From contig NZ_JAOVZO020000023.1 of NCBI RefSeq assembly GCF_025717065.2, positions 496,001 through 560,000 on the forward strand: a stretch of DNA of 64,000 nucleotides, in the 5' to 3' direction. Positions within the stretch are counted from its first letter, which is position 1, and the number at the start of each line of letters is the position of its first letter. The position numbers were made by a program, and so were the translations under genes. This document shows, piece by piece, positions 25,101-55,518 of this stretch. The notes beneath the pieces are model-generated. The model did no database searches and was not told where the DNA came from. It was given only the letters and a program-made list of their open reading frames with translations. The DNA comes from Tahibacter soli. Lineage in GTDB: Bacteria > Pseudomonadota > Gammaproteobacteria > Xanthomonadales > Rhodanobacteraceae.

Positions 25101-28100
25101 CGCCGCGCTGCGCCTCGCGCGCTACGCCAACGTCGGCCGCGTGCACGACGTCACGCGGCTGGCCGGCGCGCTCGGCGACCTCGCCAATCCGTGGGCGCTG
25201 CTCATGACCGACACCGGCAGAGACGCGCGTCGCGTCGGCGGCACGCACTACGCGTGGGACCTGCGCCTGTTGCCGGCGGGCAAGGGGCCGGCCGCGAACG
25301 CGCCGTGCGTCGACATGATGTATCCGTACGACTACGCCGCGAGCCTCGCCGACGCGCTGTCGGCGACCGACGATGCGTGCACGAAAAACGCGTTCGTTTT
25401 TCAAACGAACCGCACCGACTGGACCGGCAGCCCCGGCACCGCCTCGCCGGCCGCGCTGAGCCCCAACGTCGTCGCGACCAATACCACGGTCAAGGCGCAG
25501 GACGTCGACGATCTCGGTCGCGTCGCCGCGATCGCCGAGAACAACGATCTCAACCGCGGCGACGACGATCGCTGCGTGCAGGTCGCCTACGCGAATCCGC
25601 CGTCGGCGGCGGCGCGTCCGCGCGTGATCAACGCCGTGTCGCAGCGCACCGTGACCAATTGCGCCGCGAGCCCGGTCACGCTGACGAAGCAGCAGTGGGA
25701 ATACGACGCGCTGCCGGCCGGGCAGGCGACGAAGGGCTACGCCACGGCGCACATCGCGACGCGGCTCGACGAGAACGGCGTGCCGGTGCCGGGCGCCGAC
25801 GGCGCGAGCGCCGTGCGGCGCTTCGACGCGGTGCGCGACGCACGCGGCAACGCCACCAGCGTCCGGCGCGTACGCGACGACGGCGCGGTGCGCACCGTGA
25901 CGACGACGTTCGACGCGTTCGGCCTCGCGAGCACGGGCATCAGCGTCGCGGCGACGAACGCCGACGGCACCGCGCTGCCGCTGCAGGCATCCGGCGTCGC
26001 GCGCGACCCGCTGACGCTCGACGTGCTCGCCGCGACGGAACCCAACGGCAGCCGCGCCGAAACGGCGTACGACGGCTTCGGCCGCCTGCGGCAGTCGGGC
26101 GCCGTGCCGGTGTCGGGCACCGCGGGCGTGCTCGCGACGACCACCTACCAGGGCTATGCGGTCGGCGAAACCGGCGGACGCCGCATCGTGGAAAAATCGT
26201 TTGCCGATCCGGTGCCCGCCGCGACCGCGTCGGTCGCGGCGGGCCGCACGCGCACCGCGATCGTCGACAGCCTCGGCCGCGCGCAGCGTACCGAGGTGCA
26301 GCTCGGCGCCGACTACGGCAATCAGGTGCTCGTGGTGGGGTTCCGCACCTTCGACGGGCAGGGCCGCGTGCGCTTCGACGCCGATCCGTTCTTGTCGACC
26401 GACCCGGGGCTGACCGCCTACGGCACCACGCATTTCTTCAACGCCGACGGCTCGCCGTTCTGCGACGTGCGCGGCGCCGGCATGCGCCAGCCGAAGTCCG
26501 CGTGGCAGACCGACGAGAGCCAGCAGATCTATCCGACCTGCTATACGCGCACGTACCAGTCGTACCGCCGCACCGACGCGGTGCAGCCCGCCGACGCGCT
26601 GCTCCCGGGGTCCGCGCAGGCCGGCGTGACCTGGGCGACGACCGTCAGCGCGACGGGCCGTCCGCTGGTGCGCACGGTCACGCGCGCGACCGGCGGCCTA
26701 TGGACCGTGCTCGAGAAAACGCAGTTCACATCCGATGCGCTCGACCGCCTCGTCAAGATGCGGCGCTACCGCAATCCCGGCGCCGAGACCGAGCCCGTCG
26801 ACACCGCCTGGCACTACGACTCGTTCGGGCTCGCGACGCGCATCGAAGAGCAGGGCAATGCCACGCAGCACCGCCGCTACGACAGCTGGGGCGCCCTCGT
26901 GCGCACGCAGCGCTGCGACGACGGCGTGAGCGTCGCGCCGTGCCCGGCGAGCGACCGCCGCCAGCTGTTTCGCCACGACGCGCTCGGCCGCGTGCTGCAC
27001 AGCGAGGAGCGCAGCGGCGGCAGCGGCGACGCCGACGGCACGCTCGACGCCGACACCGTGAACGACTACACCTACGATGCGCCGGCGACGTTCGTCAGCC
27101 GCCTCGCGCCGACGTACGTGCTCGGCCGTCTCGCGTCGGCGAGTTCGCCGACGACGCAGGTGTCGCTGAGCTACGACGCGCTCGGCCGCATCAACGGCCG
27201 CGGCTACAACGACCGCCACGGCAATACCAACGTCGAGCGGCACGACTGGCACGGCGACGGCACCGAGGCGGCGCTGCGCCTCATCCTCAACGACAACGGC
27301 TTCAAGACCGAGCAGGTGACCTACGGCTACGACTCGGCCGGACGTCCGGCCTCGGCCGTATACACCGACGGCACGTTGCCGCAGCCGCTGTACGCCGCGC
27401 CCGCGAACGGCGTCGACGCGCTCGGCCGCGTGCTGCAGGCGCAGTACGGCGCGGCGACCTACAGCGCGTCTTACGCGCCCGGCGGCCGCCGCGTGCCGGA
27501 CTACGTGCGTGTCGACGGCGCAGGCTCGGCCTACCGCGAAACCGGATTCCCGGTCGTCTTCGGCGTGCCGGCGTTCGATCCGGTGGGCCGCGAGCGACTG
27601 CGCACCGAGCGCGTCAACGGCGCGCCGACCGACATCGCCGCGCTCTACGATCCGCAAGGCCGCCTGTCCGCGTCGACGCGCAGCGTCGCGTCCGCGGCGA
27701 TGCCGTCGCTGTCGTTCTCGTACGACGCGCTCGGCAACCTCACGGCGCAGACCGAACCCGGCCAGCCGTCGTCGGCGAACGCGGTGACGCTCGGCTATGC
27801 CGCGAGCGGCGATCGCGACCGCCTGTGCGCGATCGCGTTCGGCGCGGCCCCGCTGCCGGCGGCCTGCAACGTGCAGTACGACGGCATGGGCAACGTTCTG
27901 GCCGAGCCCTCGCGCACCGGGCAGCGCACGTTCACGTACTACGGCAGCGGCCGCGTGAAGACCGCGAAAGCCAACGGCAGCGAAGCCGTGTTCAAGTACG
28001 ACGGCACCGGCAACCTGCAGACGCTGACGGTGACCGGCGCGACCGACGCGCGCAACGACCGCCGCCTCGGCGCGCTGCTGCGCGTGCGCAACGAAACCGC

Positions 28101-29397
28101 CGGCGGCGCGACGAAGTCGGTCATGACGCGCCGCATTCCGCTGCCCGGCGCCGCCGCCACGCGCCACGGCGCGACCGGACCGTGGACGTTCACGTTCGGC
28201 GAGGCGCGCGGCAACCGTTTCGCGGTCGACGCGTCGGGCGCGTTCTTGCAGGACGTCGACTACCAGGCGTTCGGCACCGCGAACGCGACCGGCGCGGTGC
28301 CCGGCACGCCGCAGTACGACAACCGCCAGTGGAACGGCGGCGATGCGTTGAACGCGCTCGGTCTCGTTCAACTCGGCGCGCGCCTGTACGACCCCGCGAT
28401 CGGCCGTTTCCTGAGCCGCGACCCGATGTTCGATCCGAACAACCCGAACCCTTATGCGTTCGCCGCGAACGATCCGGTCAACGCCTCGGACCCCGGCGGC
28501 AACACCATCGTGTTCGGCGGCCTCGACTTGTTGTACCGCATCGAAGGCAACGTGTCGGGCTGGGCCATCGAGGCTTCCATTGCGCAGCCGACCGAAACGG
28601 CGGGTCCGTCCGGTTCGTCCGGCCCCGCGCCGTCGCAGCCGGTGGCGCCGCCCGCGCCGCCGGCGCCGCTCCCGTCGCCGGGCCTGTCCGTCCCGCCGAT
28701 CGTCGACACGGGCGGCGGGGCGATCCTCATGCCGCCGCTGTCGGGCGCGCCGGGTTCGTGGAACAACACGCTGACGCTGTTCGGCAGCGTGAGCACCGGG
28801 TCGGCGTCGGTGCCCGATGTTGCCGGCACGTCCGGTGCGAACGATGCGCCGCGTCCGAGCCCGAACCTGTCTTCGCCGCGTGTCCCGGACCGGTCGAGCG
28901 GTGCCGACGACTGGGTCGAGGCGATCCGCAAGTTCCGCGCGCGCACGAAGCAGCCGCCGTCGGACGACGCCGGCCCGCATACCGACGGGCCGGTCGAGGT
29001 GTTCGCGACGTTCGAGCTCGAACTGGGCGATGCGTTCTGGGACGAGAGACGCAACCTCATCGCGCACGGCGGCATTCGCCGGCCGAGCGCGGTGCTCGGC
29101 CGCGCAAGCGGCGGCTGGAGCTACGAGTTCGCGTTCGGCATCGGCGACGACGGCGAGGGGTTCAAGGCCGTCGGCGCGGGGCCGTGGGCGCGCGTCGACG
29201 TGGGGCCGGTCAACCTCACGACGGCCGGCGTCGCCTACTGGGCGAACGGCAACAACAGCCACGTCGCGGGCGAAGCGAGCCTCAACGTTCGCGTGGCCGA
29301 GGGCGTGTTCCTGAAACTCGCCGGCACCCACGCGTGGGCGTTCAGCGGCGGTCCCGCGCACGATTCGGTGGGCGTAGGCATCGGCTTCGGCCGCTAG
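22117..29397 (+). CDS. RHS1: Sec-exported SpvB/FG-GAP/RHS repeat protein (TcB-TcC-like)
   Basis: 2426-residue exported RHS protein. The ATG at 22117 has GGAG five nt upstream and opens a signal peptide (CRAALAAGGLLGVSTAPAQ). The N-terminal region (~30-340) matches the SpvB type (YAVDVPLDFSPAD...GLGWDVPLSFV). FG-GAP/VCBS-like Ca-binding motifs follow near residues 404, 474, 585, 701, 782 and 838 (DLNGDGRADF, DVNGDGYPDF and relatives), then a TcdB-middle-like region with DNGYGAYTRIAY. YD/RHS repeats fill ~1230-2060. The RHS core (~2071-2127) has QLGARLYDPAIGRFLSRDP and ends NASDPGG. In TcB/TcC toxins and related RHS proteins this core closes a cocoon, and the part beyond it is cleaved and delivered. 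The 300-residue tail here is a Pro/Gly/Ser linker plus a ~120-residue beta-rich domain ending VGVGIGFGR; I recognise no toxin in it. No small immunity-like gene follows. Confidence 0.9.
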   Translation: MYRIFPRTVCRAALAAGGLLGVSTAPAQLAPVSGSHYAARPTDTGFAGAVTAGGDYAVDVPLDFSPADPALPIPVGVVHGGRNVGAAGLGWDVPLSFVVRETTMARRRPEVSGGSAHGHERWSLTLLGERIDLVRNATDTLWIAASDHPQLEVREVNAQTLVAYDGDGRSYTFDNRRTNGAPLAGGNLYLLTRIADASGRSVRLEYATPDVALPGGGNGVQLDLARVRYNAHPTTPDCYKNEVVLQYDAPAAAPLSLSIAGGSVLARASKLATIGVNAAADCAATPTRLRTWRFDYTDAQTHQDKPDTDTGLPRLRAVTMTGRAGTPEADVVLPVAAYAYGSVVDPATRVITYQKAQPVNPPIHTGAHTFDFGIGYTTTNASSAPHGPHEVVYDLTTDQNLIDLNGDGRADFYDETGFYRNVPAAGGISQLLPGTRESWVDMRERIESRQMNAPTHPPGTAQIVGGNDTLRQVIDMNADGRLDVVEAGVPDDDHWTIHLNAPSEWDAKAITWRNVVVSIDAPRNALAATGANISRLPLARVTLLPQLFAHCWYWESRWKEDSLAGCSDIPAGASLPKTITEFALRDVNGDGYPDFVYNASPVNVVDPVAKPPIPTDPFPLQRASTTVSPDMQGSRDVRVLMNVAGTHLAANGALFAATPITLEAGGTNGCGIERWEPDPAFVPAPTTFAPVNQLCGFADVNGDGLADRVTTSTQNGTFVSKAMLGTGDAAQPFAAGAAVTLPGVIGATRTNLTQGPAGGWEPVCGAPNQAFSDTQRTRGLRDVNGDGIPDYINGATVAMGTGAGYAPAVTVSSPVGLELSLERTACPTVYRSTPRGLYDIDGDGQPEVIDMVGTGSPHWEVYQIKRPRPQWELAATPSAPEAGRLVSIDNGYGAYTRIAYQSAKDDTYSRHDVPFAEIVATLVAVTDATGVPLVETVRHAYGYATQYFDPAADAFVFAGYARTVQAQRTVDGSPNLGMATISDAYEIEPFVPGTNAALRLARYANVGRVHDVTRLAGALGDLANPWALLMTDTGRDARRVGGTHYAWDLRLLPAGKGPAANAPCVDMMYPYDYAASLADALSATDDACTKNAFVFQTNRTDWTGSPGTASPAALSPNVVATNTTVKAQDVDDLGRVAAIAENNDLNRGDDDRCVQVAYANPPSAAARPRVINAVSQRTVTNCAASPVTLTKQQWEYDALPAGQATKGYATAHIATRLDENGVPVPGADGASAVRRFDAVRDARGNATSVRRVRDDGAVRTVTTTFDAFGLASTGISVAATNADGTALPLQASGVARDPLTLDVLAATEPNGSRAETAYDGFGRLRQSGAVPVSGTAGVLATTTYQGYAVGETGGRRIVEKSFADPVPAATASVAAGRTRTAIVDSLGRAQRTEVQLGADYGNQVLVVGFRTFDGQGRVRFDADPFLSTDPGLTAYGTTHFFNADGSPFCDVRGAGMRQPKSAWQTDESQQIYPTCYTRTYQSYRRTDAVQPADALLPGSAQAGVTWATTVSATGRPLVRTVTRATGGLWTVLEKTQFTSDALDRLVKMRRYRNPGAETEPVDTAWHYDSFGLATRIEEQGNATQHRRYDSWGALVRTQRCDDGVSVAPCPASDRRQLFRHDALGRVLHSEERSGGSGDADGTLDADTVNDYTYDAPATFVSRLAPTYVLGRLASASSPTTQVSLSYDALGRINGRGYNDRHGNTNVERHDWHGDGTEAALRLILNDNGFKTEQVTYGYDSAGRPASAVYTDGTLPQPLYAAPANGVDALGRVLQAQYGAATYSASYAPGGRRVPDYVRVDGAGSAYRETGFPVVFGVPAFDPVGRERLRTERVNGAPTDIAALYDPQGRLSASTRSVASAAMPSLSFSYDALGNLTAQTEPGQPSSANAVTLGYAASGDRDRLCAIAFGAAPLPAACNVQYDGMGNVLAEPSRTGQRTFTYYGSGRVKTAKANGSEAVFKYDGTGNLQTLTVTGATDARNDRRLGALLRVRNETAGGATKSVMTRRIPLPGAAATRHGATGPWTFTFGEARGNRFAVDASGAFLQDVDYQAFGTANATGAVPGTPQYDNRQWNGGDALNALGLVQLGARLYDPAIGRFLSRDPMFDPNNPNPYAFAANDPVNASDPGGNTIVFGGLDLLYRIEGNVSGWAIEASIAQPTETAGPSGSSGPAPSQPVAPPAPPAPLPSPGLSVPPIVDTGGGAILMPPLSGAPGSWNNTLTLFGSVSTGSASVPDVAGTSGANDAPRPSPNLSSPRVPDRSSGADDWVEAIRKFRARTKQPPSDDAGPHTDGPVEVFATFELELGDAFWDERRNLIAHGGIRRPSAVLGRASGGWSYEFAFGIGDDGEGFKAVGAGPWARVDVGPVNLTTAGVAYWANGNNSHVAGEASLNVRVAEGVFLKLAGTHAWAFSGGPAHDSVGVGIGFGR

Positions 29398-29440: not shown

Positions 29441-29587
29441 CGTCCATGGCGCACGAGCGTTCTTCTTTGCGTTGTACGCCGGCGACGTCGGCCACAATGA
29501 GGATCCGTCCATGAAAATCGCACCTGCGGCTTGCCGTCGTTTTTGCGTCCGACGATGCTTGCCGTCCGGCCCGTCGCGGCCGACTTC

Positions 29588-32461
<2,874 letters not shown>

Positions 32462-32469
32462 GGACGCTC

Positions 32470-42268: not shown

Positions 42269-42330
42269 CCGGCCGGTTCGGTACGCATGGACTCGGTTCG
42301 GTGCCGGTTTGCGAATCCGATTTCTCGAAT

Positions 42331-42548
42331 CGTGGGTGTCGCGAATTCGAATCGATCGTGGGTGTCCCGAATCCGATCGCGCGAATCCGAATCGTGAGTG
42401 TCCCGATCCGCCCCAATCGTGGGTGTCCCGAATCCGGGTGCTCGAATCGTGGGTGTCCCGAATTCGTGGGTGTCACGAATTCGTGGGTGTCACGAATTCG
42501 TGGGTGTCCCGAATTCCTGGGTGTCCCGAATCCGCGAATCCGGGTGTC
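42331..42548. repeat. Cluster of ten CGTGGGTGTC decamer repeats, partly 17-bp tandem
   Basis: In the 371-bp gap between the broken peptidase gene and RHS2, the decamer CGTGGGTGTC (0-2 mismatches) starts at 42331, 42357, 42393, 42418, 42448, 42465, 42482, 42499, 42516 and 42539. From 42448 to about 42532 five copies follow each other every 17 bp, with CCGAATT or ACGAATT between them. The outer copies are 23-36 bp apart and linked by GAATCC-like sequence. The period is not a multiple of three, so this is not coding. There are no unique spacers, so it is not a CRISPR array. The cluster ends ~90 bp before the RHS2 start, so it may act as regulator-binding sites or as a length-variable promoter region. 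Confidence 0.85.
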
Positions 42549-42639
42549 CCAAATCCGTCGATGTCCCACCGGAACGCCGTTTGCCGTCCCCGCCTGCCGA
42601 GAAGGTCCGCACGGTTGCGGTACCGGATGGAGAGGGTGC

Positions 42640-45600
42640 ATGGGAAGGTCGACAAGGATCGGCCGGCGCTGCCGCAGGGCGGCGCCGGCATTGGGAAGCG
42701 CGTTGCTGGCACTGTTGCCGCTGGGTGCCGGCGCGCAGCTGGCGCCGGTCGCCGGCGCGCATTACGACACGGCGTCGGACGCCGGATTCCGGCACGGCGC
42801 GAACGCCGCCGGCGACTACGCCGCGAGCGTGCCGCTCGATCTGCCGGCTGCGCGCGGCGATCTGCCCGTACCGTTGCGGGTGGTCTACGGCGGGCGGCGC
42901 GTCGGCGCCGCCGGCCTCGGCTGGGACGTGCCGCTCTCGTTCATCGCGCGCAGCACGACCACGTCGCAGCAGCGGCCGGCGCCGCAGGCGTTTTCGCTGA
43001 CGCCGCCGCCGCTGTCGGCGCCGGAACGGCTGAGCCTCAATCTCGACGGCGCCTCGGTCGATCTCGTACGCAACGCCGCGAACACGGCCTGGACCGGCAT
43101 CCGCGGCGACAGCACGATCGAGGTGCGCAGCGGCGGCGACGGCATCTTGCTGGCCTACGACGGCGAAGGCCGCACGTACACGTTCAGTTCGCGCGGCGCG
43201 ACGACCGGCTCGCGGCTCGTCGACGGCAATCTATACCTGTTGACCGCGATCGCGGGCCCCGGCAGCGCAAACCGTCTGGAGCTCAGCTACGCGATCGGCG
43301 CGCCGGCGCTGCCGGGCGGCGGCACGGGGCTGTCGATCGATCTTGCGTCGGTGTCGTACAACGCGCATCCGGTCACGGCCGGTTGCTACAAGCACCGGGC
43401 CATCCTGAGCTACGACGCGGCGGCGGTCGCGCCGCTGTCGATGTCGCTGATCAACGGCGCGGTGCTTGCGCGACAGCGCAAGCTCACCGCGATCACGCTC
43501 AAGAGCCGCGAAACCTGCGGCAGCGAAAAGACGCTCGCGAACTACGCGTTCGCCTACCAGCCCGACGCCGACACGCGCCTGCCGCGACTGTCCTCGGTGA
43601 CGCGGTCGGGCCAGCAGGGCACGCCCGAGCAGAACGTGTCGCTGCCGGTCGGCGCCTACGGCTACGGCGGCATCGTCGGCGCCGGCAACGCCGTGACGTT
43701 TCAGAAAGTGCAGAGCGCCGGACCGCCGTCGGGCGGCGGCCACTACGACAACGGCATCGGATACACCACCGCGGCGCGCCTGGGCAGCGCGAGCGATCCG
43801 CGCGACGAGCAGCAGCTCGAAACGACGCAGTCGCTGATCGATCTCAACGGCGACGGCCGCCCGGACTTCACCGACGCGGCGCGGCAGGTCTACGTCAACC
43901 GCGCCAACGCGGCCGGACCCGTGCAATTCGTCGCGGTGCCGACGCTGCTGCCGGCGTTTCCGTCAAGCCGGGCGCTCAGCTCCGGCCCCAACAGCACCCG
44001 CTTCCGGAACGACAACCGGCACGACACCTACGTGCAGTACCTCGACATGAACGGCGACGGCCGCGTCGACCTGATCGATGCGGCGAGCGACCCGAACGCA
44101 TGGCTCGTCAAACTCAACACGCCGAACCCGGCCGACGCGGACAAGAGCGTCTATCTTGCGTACCGGATCGACACGACGCGCCTGCGCCAGGCGCTGCAGG
44201 CCGCCGGCACGACGTTCGACGGCGCCGTGCCGCTGGCGCGCCGCACGACGGTGCCGCAGAACGCGTATGCGACGTGCTGGACCAATCATCTCGTCGACGG
44301 CACGGTGCGCTGGCTGCCGAACCAGGCCGGAACGAACGGCGCAGGGTGTTCGGGCGCGCCGGCGATCACGCCGCGCAAGCGCACGATCACCGAGTTCGAA
44401 CTCAAAGACGTCAACGGCGACGGCTACCCGGACTTCGTCTACAACGGCTCGTACGTCAATCTGAGCACACGCCACAGCCCGCCGCCGCCGAACTATCCGC
44501 CACCGCCGCCGCTGGACTTCCGCCACGAGCTGACCACGCTCGCGAGCGACCTGTCCGGCTCGCGCGACGTCAAGGCGCTGATCAACACCGCCGGCACGCA
44601 CCTTGAAAACGGCGCGGAGCTCTTTTCCTCGCCGGTGCTGCTCGAAAGCGGCGGCAGCGACGGCTGCGGCGTCGACCGCTGGGAAGTCGATCCCGCGAGC
44701 GCCGCGCCCGGCGGCCTCATGGCCCAGACGTGCGCGTTCCAGGACGTCAACGGCGACGGCATCGCCGATCGCGTGACCACGTCGAACGGCATCGCCTCGG
44801 CGCGGCTCGGCACCGGCGACATGAGCCGGCCGTACGCAACCGCAAGCGTCACGCTGCCGGGACCGCTGTCGCGCACGTCGACCGATCTCGTCACCGACGT
44901 ATCGCGTCCGGGCGAGGCCAGGCCGCAGTCGTGCGGCACGCTGACGCAGTACGACACGAAGACGCTCGCCGCGCTGCGCGACATCAACGGCGACGGCATC
45001 GCCGACTATCTCGACCAGGCCGGCTTCACGAAGACCGTGGCGCTCGGCACCGGCACCGGGTATGCGCCGGCGGCGACGATCGCGATCGTCGGCGCGGCGC
45101 TCGACGACAACGTCGCGCTGTCGGTCGAACGCAACCGCTGCGAGCTGCCGGCCGGCCCCGCGGCGAACGTTTCCGCCGGCACCGTGCAGGGCCTGTACGA
45201 CCTCGACGGCGACGGGCAGCCCGAACTCGTCAACCAGAAGGCCGACCGCTGGGACGTGTTCCAGCTCAAGCCGCCGGTCGCGCAGGTCGACGTCGGCGCG
45301 GGCGTCGCGAGCGTGCCCGCGGCCGGGCGTCTCACGCGTATCGACAACGGCTACGGCGCGTCCACGACGATCGGCTACCGCTCGGCCAAGGAGGAATGGA
45401 ACGGCGAGCACCGCGTGCCGTTCGCGGAAATCGTGGTCGAGTCGGTGGGCACGCGCGACGCTTCGAACAACGCGCTGCTGGCGACGTGGCGCTACGCGTA
45501 TCGCGGCGCGTCGATGCACTTCGATCCGCTGGCCGACGCGTTCCGCTTCACCGGCTACCGGCGCAGCGTGAGCCTGCAGGCTGGCGGCGACGGCAGCGGC

Positions 45601-48600
45601 ACCGCGACCATCGAGGAGCGCCGCGGACTGGACGTCTATACGGCCGGCAGCGACGCAGCCGCGCGACTGCGGCGCTACCTGCTGGCCGGCCGGCCCGCCG
45701 AAACGGTGAGTCTCGCGGGCAGCGTCGGCACGAATCCGTGGAATCTCCTCAACGTCGACCTCGCGAGCGATCCGCGCCGCAGCGCCGGCACGCAGTACGT
45801 GTGGTCGACGCGCGCACTGGCCGACGGCGTCGCGCCGGCGAACAACGAGCGGTGCCAGGACATGGTGTATCCGTACGACTACGCGTCGTCGAAGTCGCAG
45901 GTGCCGGCCGCCGACGCGTGCACGCAGCGCGGCTTTGCCTACCTGCAGACGCGCTTCGACTGGCGCGGCACGCCGGGTGGTGGTGACGCGCTGGCCTCGA
46001 CGCAGACGGTACAGACGAGCCGCCAGGTGCTCGCGATCGACGACTACGCGCGTACGACGTCGGTGCGCGACGACAACGATCTCAACATCGAAGACGACGA
46101 CGTGTGCACGCAGACCGTGTATGCCGTGCCGGTGACCGCGGTGCCGCGCGTGCTGGTCGCGCCGGCGTCGGTGACGCTGCGCGACTGCGACGGCGCGACC
46201 TTGCTGAGCCACGAGCGCTACGAGTACGACACGCCCGCGAGCGGCGTGAAGCTGCCGGCGGGCAAGGTGGCGGCCGGTCTCGCGACCGCGCAGATCAGCG
46301 CGCGGCTCGACGTCGCGACCGGCGCGCCGGTCGATCCGGCACGGCCGGACGTGCGCAGGTTCGATGCGATTTACGACACGGCGACCGCGCAGCTCCTGAA
46401 CCTGACGACGGCGCGCGAAGACGGCGCGAGCCGCACGGTGAACATCAACTACGACGCGTTCGGTCTGGTGGCCACGGGCGTGCAGCAGGCCGCCATCGAC
46501 GCCGACGGCACCGCGCTGCCGGCACAGGCGACGACTTCGACGTTCGATGCGGTGACCTTGCGGGTGCTCGGCGTGACCGACGCCAACGGCACGCGGCGCG
46601 GCCGCACCTACGACGGTTTCGGACGCGAGCTGCGCACGACGGTCGCGCCGCCCGGCGGCAGCGAGGGTGTGCTGAGCCGGACGAATTATCTCGGCTTCGC
46701 GATCGGTCAGGGCGGCGGTCGCCGCGTTACGCGCACGGTATTTCCCGACGTCGTGGCGCCCGGCAGCGCCGACACGGCGGCGGGCCGCTCGGCGACGGTG
46801 TTCGTCGACGTCCTGGGCCGCATGCAGCGCAGCGAGGTGGCGCTCGGCGCCGACTACGCGAACCGCACGCTGAGCGTCGGCCAGCGCAGCTACGATGCGT
46901 TCGGCCGCGTCGCGTTCGTCGCCGATGCGTTCGAGACCGGGCAGAACTTCGCGACGGCGTACGGCACGACGCATCACTACCGGCCCGACGGCGACGCGCA
47001 GTGCACCTGGCGCGGCTACGGCCCGCAGGCGTTCGCGGCGAACCCGCAGAGCGACGCGGGCGCGGAGCGCTACGTCGGCTGCCAGAGCCGCGTGTTCGAC
47101 GCGAACGAGGAGCGCGTGCGCTACAGCGACGCCGACGCGCGTACGAGCGGCTCGCCGCAGGCGGGCGTCGAGCAGGAGGCGAGCTATAGCGCGATCGGGC
47201 AGCTGCTGCGCCAGCGCACGCGGCGCTCGGGCAACGACGAGACGCTCGAGATCGCCGACTACGGCTACGACAAGCTCGGCAACCGCATACAGACGAATCG
47301 CTACCTCGACGTCGTGAACCTCGCCGGCGCGGTCAGCAGCAACTGGCGCTACGACTCGCTCGGCCGCGTGACGCGACTCGCCGAAAGCGGCTCGGCGCCG
47401 CAGCGGCGCCGTTACAACGACTGGGGCGATCTGGTCTCGACGCAATGGTGCGACACCGCGGTATCCGCCTGCACCGAAGACGCGCCGAACCGCGGCTTGC
47501 ACAACGTCTACGACGGCCTGGGCCGCCTGACGCACGGCGAGGAGCGCAGCAACGGCAAGGCGATCGCCGCGACGGTGCGCGAGTTCGCCTACGACATCGG
47601 CGTGAACACCGCGACGCCGCCGGTGCCGGCAACCTTCGTGCTCGGCCGACTGGCGCAGGCGAGCTCGCCGACGAGCACCGTCAGCTACAGCTACGACGCC
47701 TTCGGCCGCGCGGCGGCGCAGGTGTACACCGATCGCACGTCCACCGCGAACAACGTCTATGTACAGAAGCAGGAATATCGCGGCGACGGCGCGCCGACGC
47801 GGCTGCACCTGCTGTTGCCGGACACGGGCTATCGCGACGAAACCGCGGACTATGCCTACGATTCCGTCGGCCGCGGCCGCTCGGTCGTATATACGGACGC
47901 GTCGCTCGTCAAGTCGCTGTTCGATGCGAGCGGCAGCGCCGACCTCGACCTGTTCGGCCGCGTGCGCAGCGCGCGCTACGGCCGGAACCTCTACGCCGCG
48001 ACGTATGCGGAGACCGGCCGCCGTCTGCTCGACCGCGTCAGCGTGAGCGCTCCGGCGCCGCTCGGAAGCGCGCGCGAATTCGTGTTCGCCGGCAGCAACG
48101 GCGCGGCGCCCGCGTACGACGCGGTCGGACGCGAGCTGTCGCGTCAGGAGCTCACGGACGGGCAAGCCGCGGCGCCGACGATCCGCGCGAGCTACGACGC
48201 GCTGGGCCGTCTAGCGCAGGTCGAGCGCCGGCCGGCCGGCGCACCGGCGACGAGCCGGCGCGACATGAGCTACGACGCGCTCGGCAACGTGTTGGCGCAG
48301 ATCGACAGCGCGGCGGGCGCGAACCTTGCGCTGAGCTACCAGACGGCCGATCGCGACCGGATCTGCAGCGTCGGCTATGCGACGACGCCGAGCCCCGCGT
48401 GCAACGTCAAGTACGACGCGGTCGGCAACGTCGTGGAAATGCCCGCGCGCAACGGCGCCACGCGCACGCTGAGCTATCTCCCCGGCGGACAGACGCGGCA
48501 GATCGTGCAAGGTACGACGCAGGCGACCTACGACTACGACGCGTATGGCCATGTGCAGCGTCTCGCGCTGACGAGTTCCGACGCGACCGACACGCGCCAG

Positions 48601-49851
48601 GACAAGCACTTCGGCGCGTTGATCAAGCAGCGCGACGAGACGGTCGGCGGCGCGCGCACGGCGGTCGTGACGCGCACGATTCCGGGACCGGGCAACCTGC
48701 GCGCGACGCGCCACGGCGGCGGCGAGGGCACGGGCTGGACGTTCGCGTACGGCGAGACCCGCGGCAACCGGTTCTTCACGAATCAGAACGGCGCGTTCGT
48801 GCAGGACGTCGACTATCAGCCGTTCGGCGAAGTGAGGACATCGGCCGGCGCGCTGCCCGGTGCGGCCGATTACACCAGTGAACAATGGAACGGCGGCGAC
48901 TTCCTCGCGGCGCTCGGCATCTCGCAGCTCGGCGCGCGCCTGTACGATCCGGTGATCGGTCGTTTCCTGAGCCGCGATCCGCTGCTGCTCGCGAGCACGG
49001 CATCGACGAGCAATCCGTACGCGTTCGCCGAGAACGACCCGTTGAACAAGGCCGATCCGACGGGCCTTTCGACCGATCCCGACTTCGGATTCAGGCCGCT
49101 GCAGCGCGAATTGAGCGGCATCGCCGGGCACGATACGCCGATCTCGTCGATCCACTCGAACCGAAACGCCCCGCCGATCGGGGAACTCCCCGGGCTTGGC
49201 GGCTTCGAGCCGACGCGCGGCGGCGGAGGCACGATCTGCGTATTTCCGCCGCCGGAGCCTCCTGTCGATACGGCGACGGGAACCGGCATACGCACGCCGT
49301 TCGCCACGCCGTCGAACGGCAGCGGCGCTCGACCGGACAACCACGCGTTGAACCTCGGCAACGGTGCAAATGTGTTCGCCTCGCCCAGGAGCGGCGGTCA
49401 ATCGACGGCGGCGGCACCGATGTCGCCGCTCATCAAGCGGGTTCGACTCGAAGCCTCACCGGAGATGGGCAAGGGCGAGCTGACCTTGAACTGGGCGCCC
49501 GTTCGCGAGCTGATCGCGCCGCAGCGAAGACTGATCATTCTGACCAGCCTTTTCGATCTGATCGACGCGGATCTGGACGATGCCGACCGCTTTCGGGACG
49601 AAGTGGATATCTGGCGTCACGGCTCGAAATACGCCCGTCAGTGGATCAAGGAGAACGACGCGCTGAACAAACAGCACACCGAACTCTATGTCGAAATCGA
49701 GGCGCTGAGGAGCGCGATGGGGATGGACCCGATCGATAACCCTCGCGCCGAAAGAGCCCTGCATCCGGCATCGCCGGAAGGCAACTTTATTTGGGAATTG
49801 CTTTGCGTGAGTAAACCGGGTTCTTGCACAGACGCCAGGCTATATCGGTAA
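42640..49851 (+). CDS. RHS2: Sec-exported SpvB/FG-GAP/RHS repeat protein
   Basis: 2403-residue paralogue of RHS1. The ATG at 42640 follows GGAGAGGG and opens a signal peptide (APALGSALLALLPLGAGAQ). The mature start LAPVAGAHYDTASDAGFRHG parallels LAPVSGSHYAARPTDTGFAG of RHS1. SpvB-like N-terminal domain to ~330 (YAASVPLDLPAARGDLPV, GLGWDVPLSFI); six FG-GAP-like motifs near residues 400, 467, 589, 703, 780 and 853; TcdB-middle-like region; YD/RHS repeats to ~2080; RHS core with QLGARLYDPVIGRFLSRDP, ending NKADPTG (~2140). The ~260-residue tail is a Gly/Pro/Ser linker followed by a helical domain (LIDADLDDADRFRDEVDIW, LYVEIEALRSAMGM) and a terminal CVSKPGSC. No immunity-like gene follows; instead comes RHS3, which shares the core and part of the tail. 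It is predicted to be a secreted or surface cocoon protein; cargo activity is unknown. Confidence 0.9.
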   Translation: MGRSTRIGRRCRRAAPALGSALLALLPLGAGAQLAPVAGAHYDTASDAGFRHGANAAGDYAASVPLDLPAARGDLPVPLRVVYGGRRVGAAGLGWDVPLSFIARSTTTSQQRPAPQAFSLTPPPLSAPERLSLNLDGASVDLVRNAANTAWTGIRGDSTIEVRSGGDGILLAYDGEGRTYTFSSRGATTGSRLVDGNLYLLTAIAGPGSANRLELSYAIGAPALPGGGTGLSIDLASVSYNAHPVTAGCYKHRAILSYDAAAVAPLSMSLINGAVLARQRKLTAITLKSRETCGSEKTLANYAFAYQPDADTRLPRLSSVTRSGQQGTPEQNVSLPVGAYGYGGIVGAGNAVTFQKVQSAGPPSGGGHYDNGIGYTTAARLGSASDPRDEQQLETTQSLIDLNGDGRPDFTDAARQVYVNRANAAGPVQFVAVPTLLPAFPSSRALSSGPNSTRFRNDNRHDTYVQYLDMNGDGRVDLIDAASDPNAWLVKLNTPNPADADKSVYLAYRIDTTRLRQALQAAGTTFDGAVPLARRTTVPQNAYATCWTNHLVDGTVRWLPNQAGTNGAGCSGAPAITPRKRTITEFELKDVNGDGYPDFVYNGSYVNLSTRHSPPPPNYPPPPPLDFRHELTTLASDLSGSRDVKALINTAGTHLENGAELFSSPVLLESGGSDGCGVDRWEVDPASAAPGGLMAQTCAFQDVNGDGIADRVTTSNGIASARLGTGDMSRPYATASVTLPGPLSRTSTDLVTDVSRPGEARPQSCGTLTQYDTKTLAALRDINGDGIADYLDQAGFTKTVALGTGTGYAPAATIAIVGAALDDNVALSVERNRCELPAGPAANVSAGTVQGLYDLDGDGQPELVNQKADRWDVFQLKPPVAQVDVGAGVASVPAAGRLTRIDNGYGASTTIGYRSAKEEWNGEHRVPFAEIVVESVGTRDASNNALLATWRYAYRGASMHFDPLADAFRFTGYRRSVSLQAGGDGSGTATIEERRGLDVYTAGSDAAARLRRYLLAGRPAETVSLAGSVGTNPWNLLNVDLASDPRRSAGTQYVWSTRALADGVAPANNERCQDMVYPYDYASSKSQVPAADACTQRGFAYLQTRFDWRGTPGGGDALASTQTVQTSRQVLAIDDYARTTSVRDDNDLNIEDDDVCTQTVYAVPVTAVPRVLVAPASVTLRDCDGATLLSHERYEYDTPASGVKLPAGKVAAGLATAQISARLDVATGAPVDPARPDVRRFDAIYDTATAQLLNLTTAREDGASRTVNINYDAFGLVATGVQQAAIDADGTALPAQATTSTFDAVTLRVLGVTDANGTRRGRTYDGFGRELRTTVAPPGGSEGVLSRTNYLGFAIGQGGGRRVTRTVFPDVVAPGSADTAAGRSATVFVDVLGRMQRSEVALGADYANRTLSVGQRSYDAFGRVAFVADAFETGQNFATAYGTTHHYRPDGDAQCTWRGYGPQAFAANPQSDAGAERYVGCQSRVFDANEERVRYSDADARTSGSPQAGVEQEASYSAIGQLLRQRTRRSGNDETLEIADYGYDKLGNRIQTNRYLDVVNLAGAVSSNWRYDSLGRVTRLAESGSAPQRRRYNDWGDLVSTQWCDTAVSACTEDAPNRGLHNVYDGLGRLTHGEERSNGKAIAATVREFAYDIGVNTATPPVPATFVLGRLAQASSPTSTVSYSYDAFGRAAAQVYTDRTSTANNVYVQKQEYRGDGAPTRLHLLLPDTGYRDETADYAYDSVGRGRSVVYTDASLVKSLFDASGSADLDLFGRVRSARYGRNLYAATYAETGRRLLDRVSVSAPAPLGSAREFVFAGSNGAAPAYDAVGRELSRQELTDGQAAAPTIRASYDALGRLAQVERRPAGAPATSRRDMSYDALGNVLAQIDSAAGANLALSYQTADRDRICSVGYATTPSPACNVKYDAVGNVVEMPARNGATRTLSYLPGGQTRQIVQGTTQATYDYDAYGHVQRLALTSSDATDTRQDKHFGALIKQRDETVGGARTAVVTRTIPGPGNLRATRHGGGEGTGWTFAYGETRGNRFFTNQNGAFVQDVDYQPFGEVRTSAGALPGAADYTSEQWNGGDFLAALGISQLGARLYDPVIGRFLSRDPLLLASTASTSNPYAFAENDPLNKADPTGLSTDPDFGFRPLQRELSGIAGHDTPISSIHSNRNAPPIGELPGLGGFEPTRGGGGTICVFPPPEPPVDTATGTGIRTPFATPSNGSGARPDNHALNLGNGANVFASPRSGGQSTAAAPMSPLIKRVRLEASPEMGKGELTLNWAPVRELIAPQRRLIILTSLFDLIDADLDDADRFRDEVDIWRHGSKYARQWIKENDALNKQHTELYVEIEALRSAMGMDPIDNPRAERALHPASPEGNFIWELLCVSKPGSCTDARLYR

Positions 49852-49879: not shown

Positions 49880-50128
49880 GCGCCGGACGATGCCTCATGG
49901 CGCGTCCGGCGCTTTGCATTTCCACGCGTGGTTGACGCTTGATGGCCCGATCGCCTTTGCTCGCAAGCTCGCCGAACTTCGTCCGGGACCAACGAAGCCG
50001 GAAGTCCGGGACAAGCAGTTCTTGCGATGCGCCGGTATCGATCGAGATTCCGATGTCCCATCGCGTCGCGCTATTTCGTCCCTGTTCGCGCAGAGCCCGC
50101 GACGTCGCGGGCCGATCGGAGACGAAGC

Positions 50129-51745
50129 ATGGAAAAGCGGATCGAAGTCGGCAGGCGACGCGCAACGACGGCGCCTGCCTGGGGCGGCATGTTGCTGGTG
50201 CTGCTGCCGTGGAGCGCCGGCGCGCAAACGGGCATGGGGTTGCAGGCCGGTACGAATCTGACGTTGAGCTATCAGACGACCGACCGCGACCGGATATGCA
50301 GCATCGGCTATGCGGCGACGCCGAATTCCGCGTGCAACGTCAAGTACGACGCGGTCGGCAACATCGTGGAAATGCCCGCGCGCAACGGTGCCACGCGCAC
50401 GCTGAGCTACTTTCCCGGCGGACGGACACGGCAGATCGCGCAAGGCGCCGCGCAGGCGACCTACGACTACGACGCGGACGGTCACGTGCAGCGCCTCGTG
50501 CTGACGGGGCCGGGAACGACCGACACGCGCCAGGACAAACACTTCGGCCCGCTGATCAAGCGGCGCGAGGAAATGATCGACGGTGTGCGCACGACGGTGA
50601 TCGTGCGCACGATTCCGGGGCCGGGCGATCTGCGCGCGACGCGCCACGGCGGTAGCGACGGCGCGGGCTGGACGTTCGCGTTCGGCGAGGCGCGCGGCAA
50701 CCGGTTCTTCACGAACCAGAACGGCGCGTTCGCGCAGGACGTCGATTACCAGCCGTTCGGCGAAGTGAGGACCGCCGCCGGCGCGCTGCCGGGTGCTGCA
50801 GATTACACGAGTGAACAATGGAATGGCGGCGACTTTCTCGCGGCGTTCGGCATCTCGCAGCTCGGCGCGCGCCTGTACGATCCGGTCATCGGCCGTTTTC
50901 TGAGCCGCGATCCGCTGCTGCTTGCGAGCGCGGCGTCGAAGAGCAACCCGTATGCGTTCGCCGAGAACGATCCTTTGAACAAGGCCGATCCGACGGGGCT
51001 GGTCGCCGATCCCGACTCCGGTTTGCAGCCGCTGATACGCGAAATGAGCAGCGTCGCCGGTGCCAATACCTCGCTCTCGTCGATTTCTTCGGGCCGAAGT
51101 GCACCGGCGGCCGGCGGACCCGCGCCCGGCGGCCACGAATCGGTGCACGGCGGCACCGGCACATCGCCGCCGCCGGAGCCTTCAGGCACCGGCAACACGA
51201 TGGGCGGCGGCATGCGCACACCGCAGGCCAGTCCGACCGGCGGCGGCGGCGATCCGCCGGACAACCGCGCGCCCAATCTCGGCAACGGCGGCAACCTGTT
51301 CGCGGCGCCCGGCGGCGGCGGAAACGGGCAGGGCTCGCCCGCGAGCGCGCCGAAGCCGGCCATCGAACCGCTCGGCCCGCAAGACCGGTTGCCGATCGTC
51401 GGCATGTCCTCCGACGAGATGCATCTGAAAATCGCCGAGGCGCTGATGAAACTGCTGCAGGAAAATGTGGAAGATCTCGGCGCCGAACCTTTTTCCACTG
51501 CCGCGCGCGCGGACCGCATCGGGGCCGAACGGCGCGATCTGTACGAGCGTATCTTCGATCTGCGACAGCAGAGCCGCGATCTGCGCAAGAAGCTCGGCTT
51601 GCCGCCGCCGGATGTCCGGATATCCCGTCCCGGCGCGCGAAACACCGATGGCGGCGGATTTCCGGTTACGCCCGGCGAACTCGGCTGCCTCGCGCTCGGC
51701 GGCAATTGCGTGCCCCGCAGCGTCCAGGACGTCCTGCGTCAATGA
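50129..51745 (+). CDS. RHS3: minimal RHS protein, signal peptide fused to core and tail
   Basis: 538-residue exported RHS fragment. The ATG at 50129 has GGAGA 6 nt upstream. It opens a signal peptide (WGGMLLVLLPWSAGAQ) resembling that of RHS2. After only ~10 residues it joins the last part of the RHS repeat region (NLTLSYQTTDRDRICS), matching RHS2 from about base 48315. From there to the core end (NKADPTG, ~289) it is very close to RHS2, so the SpvB, FG-GAP and most RHS repeats are missing without loss of frame. The tail (290-538) shares the Gly/Pro linker (NLGNGGNLFAAP) with RHS2, then diverges into its own helical domain (MHLKIAEALMKLLQENVEDL, ERIFDLRQQSRDLRKKLGL) and ends with CLALGGNC and a short tail. 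It may be an orphan tip that recombines with RHS2, or a gene product in its own right. A ribosome site and signal peptide favour expression. Confidence 0.85.
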   Translation: MEKRIEVGRRRATTAPAWGGMLLVLLPWSAGAQTGMGLQAGTNLTLSYQTTDRDRICSIGYAATPNSACNVKYDAVGNIVEMPARNGATRTLSYFPGGRTRQIAQGAAQATYDYDADGHVQRLVLTGPGTTDTRQDKHFGPLIKRREEMIDGVRTTVIVRTIPGPGDLRATRHGGSDGAGWTFAFGEARGNRFFTNQNGAFAQDVDYQPFGEVRTAAGALPGAADYTSEQWNGGDFLAAFGISQLGARLYDPVIGRFLSRDPLLLASAASKSNPYAFAENDPLNKADPTGLVADPDSGLQPLIREMSSVAGANTSLSSISSGRSAPAAGGPAPGGHESVHGGTGTSPPPEPSGTGNTMGGGMRTPQASPTGGGGDPPDNRAPNLGNGGNLFAAPGGGGNGQGSPASAPKPAIEPLGPQDRLPIVGMSSDEMHLKIAEALMKLLQENVEDLGAEPFSTAARADRIGAERRDLYERIFDLRQQSRDLRKKLGLPPPDVRISRPGARNTDGGGFPVTPGELGCLALGGNCVPRSVQDVLRQ

Positions 51746-51950: not shown

Positions 51951-52508
51951 ATGTCGACCGAACCTCTCGTTTCACCGGATGCAGGAAGCACCATCGGCAC
52001 GGCGGCCGGCGACGACCTGTTTCACGCGGCGTACGAGCGCCTGAAGACGATCGCGAGCCGGCAGATCGCGCGCGATCGCGGCGTGACGCTCAACACCACC
52101 GAACTCGTGCACGAGCTGTACGAACGCATGACGCGACAGGAGATGCTCGCGCTCGGCGGGCCGCGCAACTTCTTTGCCTATGCGGCCAATGCGATGCGCA
52201 ACATCCTGATCGACCGGGCGCGCCACCGGCTCGCGCAGAAGTCGGGCGGCGACTGGATCCGCGTGACGATATCCGATCACCACGAATCGGCGGCCGACGC
52301 GCTCGCGCTCGACGTCATCGCGCTGAACGACGCGCTGGGACGGCTCGAAGCGGAAGACCGTCGTGCGGCGAAAGTCGTCGAACTGCGGTATTTCGCGGGG
52401 CTGCCGGTCGAGGAGATCGCCGACATCATCGGCGTCAACCGCCGCACGATCACGCGCGACTGGGATTTCGCCCGCGCGTTTCTGCACGCGGAGCTCAAGA
52501 AGGCCTAG
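51951..52508 (+). CDS. ECF sigma factor linked to a Ser/Thr kinase (ECF2)
   Basis: 185-residue paralogue of the sigma factor at 32470. The ATG at 51951 was chosen because it gives the same length and N-terminus as that paralogue. A GTG at 51819 with a perfect AAGGAG site would add 44 residues including CDPC and may be the true start. Region 2: LFHAAYERLKTIAS ... FFAYAANAMRNILIDRAR. Region 4: EAEDRRAAKVVELRYFAG and the helix-turn-helix VEEIADIIGVNRRTITRDW. The acidic motif of region 2.2 is replaced by NTTELVHE (Thr49-Thr50), the same substitution as in ECF1, so kinase phosphorylation is the likely activating step. The gene precedes its kinase by 39 bp, the reverse of the order at 29588-33000. 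It lies 206 bp after RHS3. Targets are unknown; the RHS genes and surface giants are candidates. Confidence 0.87.
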   Translation: MSTEPLVSPDAGSTIGTAAGDDLFHAAYERLKTIASRQIARDRGVTLNTTELVHELYERMTRQEMLALGGPRNFFAYAANAMRNILIDRARHRLAQKSGGDWIRVTISDHHESAADALALDVIALNDALGRLEAEDRRAAKVVELRYFAGLPVEEIADIIGVNRRTITRDWDFARAFLHAELKKA

Positions 52509-52547
52509 CCGGGCGGCGCGGGCCGCTATGCCAAGGCGCATCCCATC

Positions 52548-55310
52548 ATGCGCATCGTCCATTTATCCCTTCGTGACTATTTCGAGGCCGCGCTGGCGTT
52601 GCCTGCCGCCGACCGCGCCGCGTTCCTGCGCGAGCGGTGCGACGATCCGTCGACGCGGCGCCGCGTCGAGGCCATGCTCGCCGCGCACGACGGCGAGGGC
52701 CTTCTCAATCTGCCGGTCGAAGCGCTCGCCGACCGGTTGGCCGCGGCGCCGGCGATGGACCCGGCCGACTGGACCGGCCGCACCGTTGGCGGCGTGCGCC
52801 TGCTCGGCGCGATCGGGCAGGGCGGCTCCGCCGTCGTCTTTCGCGGCGAAAGGCTGCTGCAGGACGTGCCGCAGACCGTCGCGGTCAAACTGCTGCGCCA
52901 CGTGCTGCTGACCGAGTTCGACGTGCGCCGCTTCCGGCGCGAGCGCGCGGCGATGGCGCGCCTGACGCATCCGCACATCGCACGACTCTTCGACGGCGGC
53001 ACGACCGACGCGGGCCTCGCGTATCTCGTGCTCGAATACGTCGACGGCGAGCGCATCACCGACTACGCGACGCGCGAGGGACTCGGGTCGGGCCCGCGCA
53101 TCGCATTGATGATCGACGTGTGCCGCGCGGTGGAAGCCGCGCACCGCGCGCTGATCGTGCACCGCGACCTGAAGCCGTCGAACGTGTTCGTCACGCGCGA
53201 GGGCCACGTCAAACTGCTCGATTTCGGCATCGCGAAGTTTCTCAACGCCGACGAAGACGCGACGGTCACCGGCCACGGCGCGCTGACGCCGGCCTATGCC
53301 GCGCCCGAACAATTCCATGGCGAGGCGGTGACCACCGCGACCGACGTCTACGCGCTCGGCGTTCTGCTCGCCGAGCTTGCGACCGGCCGGCGCCCGGGCG
53401 ACGTCCGCGCAAGCGATGCCGACGACACGCGGCCGCTGCCGCGCCGGCTGCAGGGCGATCTCGCCAACGTCGTGCGCATGGCGACGGCGTCCGATCCGCA
53501 GCGGCGCTACGCGTCGGCCGGTTCGCTTGCCGACGATCTGGAGCGGTTTCTCGAATCGCGTCCGGTGCGCGCGCACCCGCCGTCGCGGCGCTACCGGCTC
53601 GGAAAATTCTACGCGCGCCATCGACCGGCGATCGGCGTCGCGGCAGTGTTTCTCGCGCTGCTGCTCGTCGCGGTCGCCGCGGCGCTGTGGCAGGCCGACG
53701 CCGCGACCGCGCACGCGGCGCGCGCGCGCGCCGAGGCCGCGCAAGCCCGAGCCACGCGCGACTTCATGATCGACGTGTTTCGCCTCGCCGAACCGGCGGG
53801 CGCGCGCGCGGCGCCGCCGAGCGTCGTCGACGTGACCGAGGCGGCGCTGTCGCGCATCGCGGACGACCGGCGCATGGATTCTCGCGCGCGGCTCGAACTC
53901 GAAACCCGGCTCGGCGCGGTGCTGCGCGGACAAGGCCGGCTCGAAGGCAGCCGCGAGGTGCTGCGCGCGGCCGCGGCGCGCGGCGAGGCGGCGTTCGGCG
54001 CCGACGACGCGCTCGTGGCCGACGCGCGCCTCGAGCTGATCGAGGCGTCGATCGCCGCCGGCGACTACGCCGCCGCCGACGCAGAGGTCGAAGCGCTGGG
54101 GCTCCACGCGCGTCTCGATCGCGACCGCACCGTCAGACGCGCGCTGCTCGCCGCGACCGTCGCCGCGCGCCGCGGCGACGCGGCGAAAGCGACGCGGCTG
54201 ATCGGCGATGCCGAGGCGCTGTGCGCCGATTGCGCCGATCCGCTGCGGTTCGAGCTCCTGATCGCCAAGGGCGACGTGTACGGCACGTTCGACCGCAACG
54301 CCGTCGCCGCGGCGTCGTTCGAGGCGGGCGCGGCGCTCGCCGCGACGCTGTACGGGCCGGTGCACACCAAGCGCGCGTCCGCGCTCGACGGCCTTTCGAG
54401 CGCGTACCGGCGCATGGGGCGTGCCGACGACGCGCTGCGCATCGCGCGCGAGGTGCTCGACATCGACGATCGCGTCGGCACGCCGGCGCTGCACTGGCGG
54501 CGTGCCGTGCACCTGCATCGTCTTGCGAACGCGTATCACGATCTCGGCCGCTTCGACGAAGCGCTCGACGCGTTCGAGCGCAGCCTCGCGGTGTCGAAAC
54601 AGGTGAGCGACGACAACGACCAGTCGCTCGCCGTGGACATCCGCAACGTCGGCATCGTGTATTACAAGCTCGGCCGGTTCGATCGCGCGATCGCGCATCT
54701 GAACGACGCGCTCGCGCGCTTCGTCGCGTTCAGCGGCCCGCACCATCGCAGCGTCGCCGACCTGCGTGCGAACATCGCCGACATCCTCGCGACGGGCGGC
54801 GACACGGCGAAGGCGTTGCCGATGGTGGATGCCGCGATCGCGGATCTGCGGCAGGCCGGCGCAGGCGCCGAGCGCCCGCTCGCCGAGGCCTGGCTGCACC
54901 AGGGTTCGATCCGCCTGATTGCCGGCGATCCCGCCGGCGCGCTCGTCAGCATCGAACAGGCGACGGCGCTGCTCGACGCGCCGGCCGCCGAAACGCGCGA
55001 AGCGACGCGCCTGCACGCGCGCGTCCTGCACGGCGTCGCGCTCGCGCGGCTGCGGCGCGCGCAAGCGGCGAGGGCGCAACTGACGCCGGCGCTCGAACGG
55101 CTCGCCGCGCTCGACGCGAACCATCACGGTCAGGCCTACGCGCGCTTTGCGCTCGGCGCGCTCGCGCTCGCCGAAGGGCACTGCGAAGCGGCCCGCGAAA
55201 ACCTCGAGGCCGGCCGCGCGCTGCTGCGGCGCAAGCCGTTCGTCTACGCGCATCTGCGGGCCGCCGAGGCCGACCTCGCGTCGGATCTGCCGCGCCGCTG
55301 CGCGCCGTGA
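52548..55310 (+). CDS. Membrane Ser/Thr protein kinase with TPR-rich C-terminal domain
   Basis: 920-residue paralogue of the kinase at 29588. The ATG at 52548 starts MRIVHLSLRDYFEAAL; only a weak AAGG precedes it. The kinase domain (~80-340) is complete: glycine loop GQGGSAVVF, VAVKLL with Lys near 113, HRDLKPSN at ~204, DFGIAKF at ~224 and APEQF at ~253. A transmembrane segment lies at ~361-383 (AIGVAAVFLALLLVAVAAAL), then an Ala-rich coiled coil and TPR repeats (YRRMGRADDALRIAREVL, YHDLGRFDEALDAFERSL, YYKLGRFDRAIAHLNDAL). Topology puts the kinase in the cytoplasm and the TPRs outside the inner membrane, suited to sensing an envelope signal. The sigma factor just upstream is its probable substrate. 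A hairpin with a T-run follows the gene. Confidence 0.9.
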   Translation: MRIVHLSLRDYFEAALALPAADRAAFLRERCDDPSTRRRVEAMLAAHDGEGLLNLPVEALADRLAAAPAMDPADWTGRTVGGVRLLGAIGQGGSAVVFRGERLLQDVPQTVAVKLLRHVLLTEFDVRRFRRERAAMARLTHPHIARLFDGGTTDAGLAYLVLEYVDGERITDYATREGLGSGPRIALMIDVCRAVEAAHRALIVHRDLKPSNVFVTREGHVKLLDFGIAKFLNADEDATVTGHGALTPAYAAPEQFHGEAVTTATDVYALGVLLAELATGRRPGDVRASDADDTRPLPRRLQGDLANVVRMATASDPQRRYASAGSLADDLERFLESRPVRAHPPSRRYRLGKFYARHRPAIGVAAVFLALLLVAVAAALWQADAATAHAARARAEAAQARATRDFMIDVFRLAEPAGARAAPPSVVDVTEAALSRIADDRRMDSRARLELETRLGAVLRGQGRLEGSREVLRAAAARGEAAFGADDALVADARLELIEASIAAGDYAAADAEVEALGLHARLDRDRTVRRALLAATVAARRGDAAKATRLIGDAEALCADCADPLRFELLIAKGDVYGTFDRNAVAAASFEAGAALAATLYGPVHTKRASALDGLSSAYRRMGRADDALRIAREVLDIDDRVGTPALHWRRAVHLHRLANAYHDLGRFDEALDAFERSLAVSKQVSDDNDQSLAVDIRNVGIVYYKLGRFDRAIAHLNDALARFVAFSGPHHRSVADLRANIADILATGGDTAKALPMVDAAIADLRQAGAGAERPLAEAWLHQGSIRLIAGDPAGALVSIEQATALLDAPAAETREATRLHARVLHGVALARLRRAQAARAQLTPALERLAALDANHHGQAYARFALGALALAEGHCEAARENLEAGRALLRRKPFVYAHLRAAEADLASDLPRRCAP

Positions 55311-55353: not shown

Positions 55354-55518
55354 CGCGTTCGCCGTGATCGGCCGGCGCGCCCGATTGCGCTAGTCGGAGT
55401 GTCGCGGTCGCGGGGCTGGCGCGATCGATGCGAGTGCGCCGACCGGGCGGCTCGCGTTTCTTCTCCGTGGCACCTTTGATGCATGCACGGTCGCTCTTTC
55501 TCAGGGGGAAAGATTCCG

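Follow-up and report, generated by a model that had tools for sequence, protein, structure and literature searches.

Rhs proteins of known structure form a shell of about 100 kDa, in which the conserved C-terminal region spirals inward and seals one end (PMC8765631, available portion). The same portion of that article describes how, in Tc toxins and RhsA, this C-terminal region cuts the tail at a PxxxxDPxGL motif using two aspartates. For the TcdB/TcaC path, the available text of Zhang 2012 (PMC3482391) gives the domain list as signal peptide, SpvB, propeller, and RHS. In enterobacteria, orphan rhs tips usually lack a start and an export signal, and a case from Salmonella shows such a tip fused to a main rhs gene (Koskiniemi 2014, PMC3967940, as far as the excerpted text goes).

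The window analyzed here, a stretch of 64,000 nucleotides from Tahibacter soli, carries the RHS genes RHS1, RHS2, and RHS3 (Table 1). RHS1 and RHS2 are full length and match FG-GAP, TcdB_toxin_midN, RHS repeat, and core profiles in Pfam and TIGR; SpvB is absent among the Pfam matches of both. The start of RHS2 was set at 42640 rather than at 42118 of the raw ORF list, based on a ribosome site (GGAG) and a signal peptide ending in GAGAQ. Just upstream of RHS2 lies an array of seven copies of a 17-bp unit (42417-42531), accompanied by longer variants (42326-42557). A 20-bp probe from this array, allowing up to 2 mismatches, matches only 42326-42557 among eight genomes of the genus.

TABLE 1 RHS genes, parts of RHS3, and downstream neighbors in the window (positions counted from the first letter of the window)
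Feature	Coordinates	Strand	Description
RHS1	22117..29397	+	2,426 aa; full length, same architecture as RHS2
RHS2	42640..49851	+	2,403 aa; signal peptide, FG-GAP, TcdB_toxin_midN, RHS repeats, core, tail
5' flank of RHS3	50051..50128	+	Homologous to RHS2 flank 42559-42639
RHS3	50129..51745	+	538 aa; signal peptide, short YD stretch, Rhs core, linker, unique tip
Signal peptide of RHS3 (MEKR..SAGA)	50129..50224	+	Homologous to RHS2 MGRS..GAGA; called by a home-made rule
Junction Ala-Gln (GCGCAA) in RHS3	50222..50227	+	End of signal peptide meets RHS body
Rhs core segment of RHS3	50747..51001	+	Candidate catalytic Asp261 and Asp287; motif PLNKADPTGL
Gly/Pro/Ser/Ala-rich linker of RHS3	51002..51337	+	54% aa identity to RHS2 linker
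Unique tip of RHS3	51338..51742	+	Without known domain
ECF sigma factor (TIGR02999)	51951..52508	+	Directly downstream of RHS3; counterpart adjoins RHS in sister species G003
Ser/Thr kinase with TPRs	52548..55310	+	Counterpart adjoins RHS gene in G003

RHS3 is a real, intact gene. Its ATG at 50129 follows a GGAG ribosome site at a spacing of seven bases and opens a frame of 538 codons without internal stop, which bears out the claim of an earlier, sequence-only note that this gene has its own ribosome site and signal peptide. No Pfam profile matches RHS3 at E 0.01; the curated profile TIGR03696 (Rhs_assc_core) places it among the RHS repeat-associated core proteins, with a match at residues 207-291 (E 2.8e-16; 59.8 bits against a cutoff of 32.5). 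The autoprotease signature is retained as well: PLNKADPTGL occupies residues 282-291, and D261 and D287 are both kept. Across 14 aligned cores, G211, R248, Y250, D251, D261, P262, P282, D287, and G290 (RHS3 numbering) are invariant. The two aspartates are 26 residues apart, compared with 22 for D1324 and D1346 of RhsA (PMC8765631, available portion). A scan for a sigma-70-like promoter of RHS3 found none, and a terminator scan returned two hits where 2.5 were expected.

Both ends of RHS3 are homologous to RHS2. At the 5' side, the flank and signal peptide (50051-50226 against 42559-42737) are 66.7% identical in DNA (E 1e-15). The signal peptides share 52% of their amino acids over 33 codons, and none of 500 shuffles reached their score. 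The flank score was reached by none of 1,000 shuffles and by 3 of 1,000 random 78-mers of the window (maximum, 75), one or more of these overlapping the query flank. In the eight genomes of the genus, the closest relative of the RHS3 5' end after itself is the start of RHS2 (72% over 79 bases; E 5e-5). The flank homology begins right after the 17-bp-unit array at 42326-42557. At the other side, the cores (RHS2 48320-49151, RHS3 50253-51084) are 86.8% identical in DNA and 83% in amino acids over 255 codons. The tips share 28% of amino acids over 123 aligned codons, a similarity that is weak at best, as 9 of 500 shuffles reached its score. A nearly identical core with a different tail end, as the note had described, is thus what the alignment returns. 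RHS1 is more distant, with 45% amino acid identity to RHS3 across the matched stretch.

The two homologous parts meet at an Ala-Gln pair. RHS2 has in-frame Ala-Gln codons (GCGCAG) at 42733-42738 and again at 48295-48300, separated by 5,562 bp or 1,854 codons, and RHS3 downstream of its junction follows RHS2 from the second site. In the alignment, the glutamine at this position is common to RHS3, RHS2, the G003 relative, and RHS1. The earlier note had RHS3 entering the RHS sequence at a point equal to base ~48315 of RHS2, with about 1,850 residues lacking. The number of missing residues and the in-frame entry on the core side stand. The entry point can be moved to the Ala-Gln, and the DNA alignment that the note had proposed adds the homology of the 5' flank and signal peptide. 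A shared run of at least 6 within 15 nt also turns up in 263 of 5,000 random in-frame junctions, or in 1,540 of 5,000 when an offset slippage of as many as 3 codons is allowed, so the GCGCAG microhomology is suggestive at most of the mode of deletion.

A search of 41 near genomes with RHS3 at E 1e-20 gave matches in two, its own genome and that of G003; the other 40 contained a single match, the long RHS gene of G003. A scan of genome contigs yielded nothing but the RHS core of a Frankia (E 7e-8, as calculated against the candidate stretches). In G003, contig C54 carries an RHS frame of at least 1,324 aa, running off the contig end, immediately upstream of counterparts of the ECF sigma factor at 51951 and the kinase at 52548 (69.7% DNA identity over 52051-53932; family searches for the sigma factor used a query from codon 2, 51954-52505). 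A long RHS gene hence occupies the place of RHS3 in this sister species, where any second copy would be hidden by the contig end. Its tail after DPTGL (L071, 3130-3972) differs from that of RHS3 and has no Pfam match; by eye, a Cys and a later His in it recall papain-like toxins.

The combination of RHS gene, Ser/Thr kinase with TPRs, and ECF sigma factor occurs twice in the window (29500-32900 and 51951-55310) and again in G003. After RHS1, the kinase precedes the sigma factor, as judged from visual inspection and from similarity of the kinase DNA; after RHS3, the sigma factor comes first. These genes may have a regulatory link with the expression of RHS genes.

Collapse of a full RHS copy in frame, one of two readings that the earlier note had offered, is well supported by the homologous start and flank, the in-frame junction, and the long RHS gene in G003, and we consider it likely. 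In this reading, a second full-length, TcB-like RHS gene would have been copied beside RHS2, and the in-frame loss of about 5.5 kb would then have brought its signal peptide directly against the core and the few YD repeats that precede it. The other proposal of the note, a selected minimal exporter of the tail, does not stand as an alternative to collapse, as both can hold; what it says about retention is taken up below. As a whole, a collapsed full-length copy that most likely still serves as a small secreted carrier is the account we favor, with a slight lean. The anatomy of RHS3, the homology at both of its ends, and the kept motif are shown; its export, its autocleavage, and whatever activity the tail may have are inferred.

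The tail itself offers few leads. Whole, it has no match in Pfam up to E 5 or in PADLOC, and nothing credible among PDB sequences (best E, 0.74). Many polymorphic-toxin tips are still undescribed. Among 117 genomes of the family, the RHS3 tip matches only its own genome and G052 (E 3e-4); the latter match, lying amid unrelated frames that look housekeeping-like by eye, was judged to be chance. The RHS2 tip has a single outside match in the family genomes (E 0.006), which was set aside as a 44-aa frame holding a stop. Considering ORFs of at least 30 aa that lie wholly inside the gaps flanking RHS3 rather than overlapping genes, the 277 bp before and 205 bp after it contain only antisense ORFs of 37 to 43 aa, and no immunity candidate. 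Within these gaps, RHS3 therefore has no candidate for the adjacent immunity gene of a polymorphic toxin.

Short RHS genes with a signal peptide are also present elsewhere. We scanned 39 short RHS frames: 19 from the genus (404 to 720 aa, RHS3 included; the set passes over frames that are truncated by a contig edge, interrupted, or shorter, as well as a single 834-aa frame) and 20 places of 450 to 800 aa outside it, among the matches listed. Two of the 39, truncated at their 5' end by a contig edge, were set aside. A home-made rule, allowing a start within the first 120 codons, called a signal-peptide-like start in 12 of the remaining 37, namely, 8 of the 19 genus frames and 4 of the 18 others (among the matches listed); as a control, 38 of 1,000 stretches inside RHS1 and RHS2 satisfied the same rule. 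On reading, 11 of the 12 calls are credible. The exception, L109 from outside the genus, was taken as false since it sits within an RHS stretch. For L058, the called start is a GTG that no ribosome site precedes, though the L058 peptide can be aligned to its L051 counterpart.

L051, L058, L066, and L073 form one family of short signal-peptide RHS genes, found in three of the eight genus genomes, including that of RHS3 itself (G000:C1). Its signal peptide, YD repeats, and core are conserved, with omega between 0.09 and 0.24, and its pretoxin region has an omega of 0.06 to 0.15; in the most distant member, dS approaches or exceeds saturation. The tips are of three different kinds, 17 to 32% identical apart from one pair at 97%. 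Outside the genus, in 59 sampled family genomes, the carrier part matches only long frames. Members resemble RHS3 in having a signal peptide, few YD repeats, a core, and a tip, but differ from it in their core lineage, the conserved pretoxin region, DRSG in place of DPTG at the core end, and, by eye in three of the four, an HH-bearing tip. In addition, a short signal-peptide RHS gene of G002 carries an AHH nuclease domain at its C-terminal end (Pfam E 2e-13). Two further short signal-peptide RHS genes, L078 and L079 of G003, have tails with an HExxH-like stretch, and the match of L078 to an M6 peptidase falls just short of the Pfam cutoff.

The signal-peptide scan, the four-member family, and the AHH gene of G002 thus suggest that short exported RHS genes recur in the genus and that RHS3 is one with a readable origin. 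The earlier note had assumed that orphan RHS tips normally lack a start and export signal. This agrees with the enterobacterial orphans (PMC3967940, excerpted text) but does not extend to the frames scanned here, where short signal-peptide RHS genes are not rare (12 of 37, 11 of them credible). The search of related genomes that it had suggested did find such genes, in 8 of the 19 genus frames with RHS3 counted.

Between the RHS2 and RHS3 cores, dS equals 0.33 and dN 0.08 (ratio, 0.24). With G003 as outgroup, which is distant (dS 0.86 to 0.96), the RHS2 branch has 22 synonymous and 15 nonsynonymous changes (omega about 0.23) and the RHS3 branch 16 and 18 (omega about 0.38, departing from neutrality at a one-sided P of 0.005 on rounded site numbers; the counts pool time before and after the collapse). 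The RHS3 core thus appears to have changed under purifying selection, of which the share after the collapse is not separable from the share before. Retention of RHS3 under selection is only moderately supported.

RHS3 could instead be a decaying, functionless leftover whose frame is open only because the collapse is recent. This is a possibility to which we give appreciable but less than even weight. It would fit the failure to find an ortholog in the 40 other near genomes and in the contig scan, the unmatched tail with no immunity candidate inside the gaps, and a GC3 of 0.818, below the 0.892 of RHS2. In neutral simulations, the 538-codon frame was open in 502, 219, 160, and 41 of 2,000 runs at 0.05, 0.085, 0.1, and 0.16 substitutions per site, respectively; the count at the lowest rate speaks for decay, the smaller counts at the higher rates for retention. 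Decay is harder to reconcile with the intact ribosome site, signal peptide, and core motif, with the RHS3 branch omega below 1, and with the constraint on short signal-peptide RHS genes of another lineage in the genus. Between the two, a secreted minimal carrier is somewhat more likely.

A different origin, without any collapse, is that a displaced RHS tip beside RHS2 captured an RHS 5' end by recombination. It would end in the same final structure, and the orphan tip joined to a main rhs gene in Salmonella (PMC3967940, excerpted text) provides a precedent. The synonymous difference between RHS2 and RHS3 is also higher in the signal peptide (pS 0.45) than in the core (0.28), though not significantly so (Fisher P = 0.12 on rounded counts); for the same reason, gene conversion is unnecessary to account for the alike cores. 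Since the junction is in register with Ala-Gln on both sides, and G003 has a long RHS gene at the RHS3 place, although its contig end may hide a second, we regard capture as unlikely. That the short gene is an assembly artefact within a repeat family is very improbable: repeated RHS genes are difficult to assemble and this is a draft of 23 contigs, yet no identical copy was found to misjoin, the next best cores in the genome being 73% and 45% identical in amino acids and the next best 5' end 72% in DNA over 79 bases.

If RHS3 is a collapsed copy that still works as a carrier, its product would be exported by Sec to the periplasm, as the signal-peptide rule and the homology to RHS2 suggest, with cleavage probably after Ala32, and might then move outward via a type II system. 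The core of about 260 residues, which in known Rhs proteins plugs and cuts, is predicted to cut after Leu291 and would free a 247-residue tail; alternatively, it may hold the tail as an uncut C-terminus. Without a shell, a stable fold of this core is not assured. The genome has type II secretin GspD matches above the cutoff at two places and one VgrG match of the type VI system, below the cutoff. The Tc A partner profile PF18276 gave no match, the control likewise matching nowhere.

Judged from length, RHS3 is too short for a closed cocoon, because only about 259 residues separate the signal peptide from the end of DPTGL. Compared to its TcdB/TcaC-type sisters (type as in the available text of PMC3482391), RHS3 shares the signal peptide, the core, the RHS2 linker, and the locus. 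It differs by lacking 1,854 residues, that is, FG-GAP, TcdB_toxin_midN, and nearly all RHS repeats, and so has neither the propeller nor the TcdB midN of a Tc toxin B-C-like protein, both of which RHS1 and RHS2 match. Like the orphan rhs-CT modules (PMC3967940, excerpted text), it is short, lies downstream of a full rhs gene, and combines a common core with a different tail. Unlike them, it comes with a start, a ribosome site, and an export signal of its own, and with no immunity candidate in the flanking gaps. It resembles the unstalked secreted polymorphic toxins (PMC3482391, available text) in its signal peptide, its few hundred residues, and its variable C-terminus, but differs in the Rhs core with an autoprotease motif, the unrecognized tip, the evident kinship to a stalked sister, and, again, the missing immunity candidate.

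Two further observations concern the remainder of the window. A 342-bp unit is repeated 8.7 times in tandem at 2949-5943, with long frames on both strands (2,594 aa on the minus and 2,107 aa on the plus strand). By eye, the string IFRNGFE recurs in two large proteins, 33051-40850 (-) and 55483-60072 (+), near the C-terminus in one and before a C-terminal stretch in the other; it is possibly a sorting tag.

Among the matches listed in a literature search of partial coverage, no description of a collapse of this kind was found. That one in-frame deletion turned a stalked cocoon RHS carrier into a freely secreted minimal one, whose plug-and-autoprotease core functions shell-less, and that such conversions have recurred in this genus, is doubtful and is offered tentatively. 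If true, RHS tails would have a second mode of delivery, one that needs no shell. The known Rhs core closes and cuts inside a shell, and RHS3 raises the question of whether such a core can fold, cut, and carry alone. That comparison is eased by RHS2 lying alongside and by a distinct family of short RHS genes that has a member in this genome.
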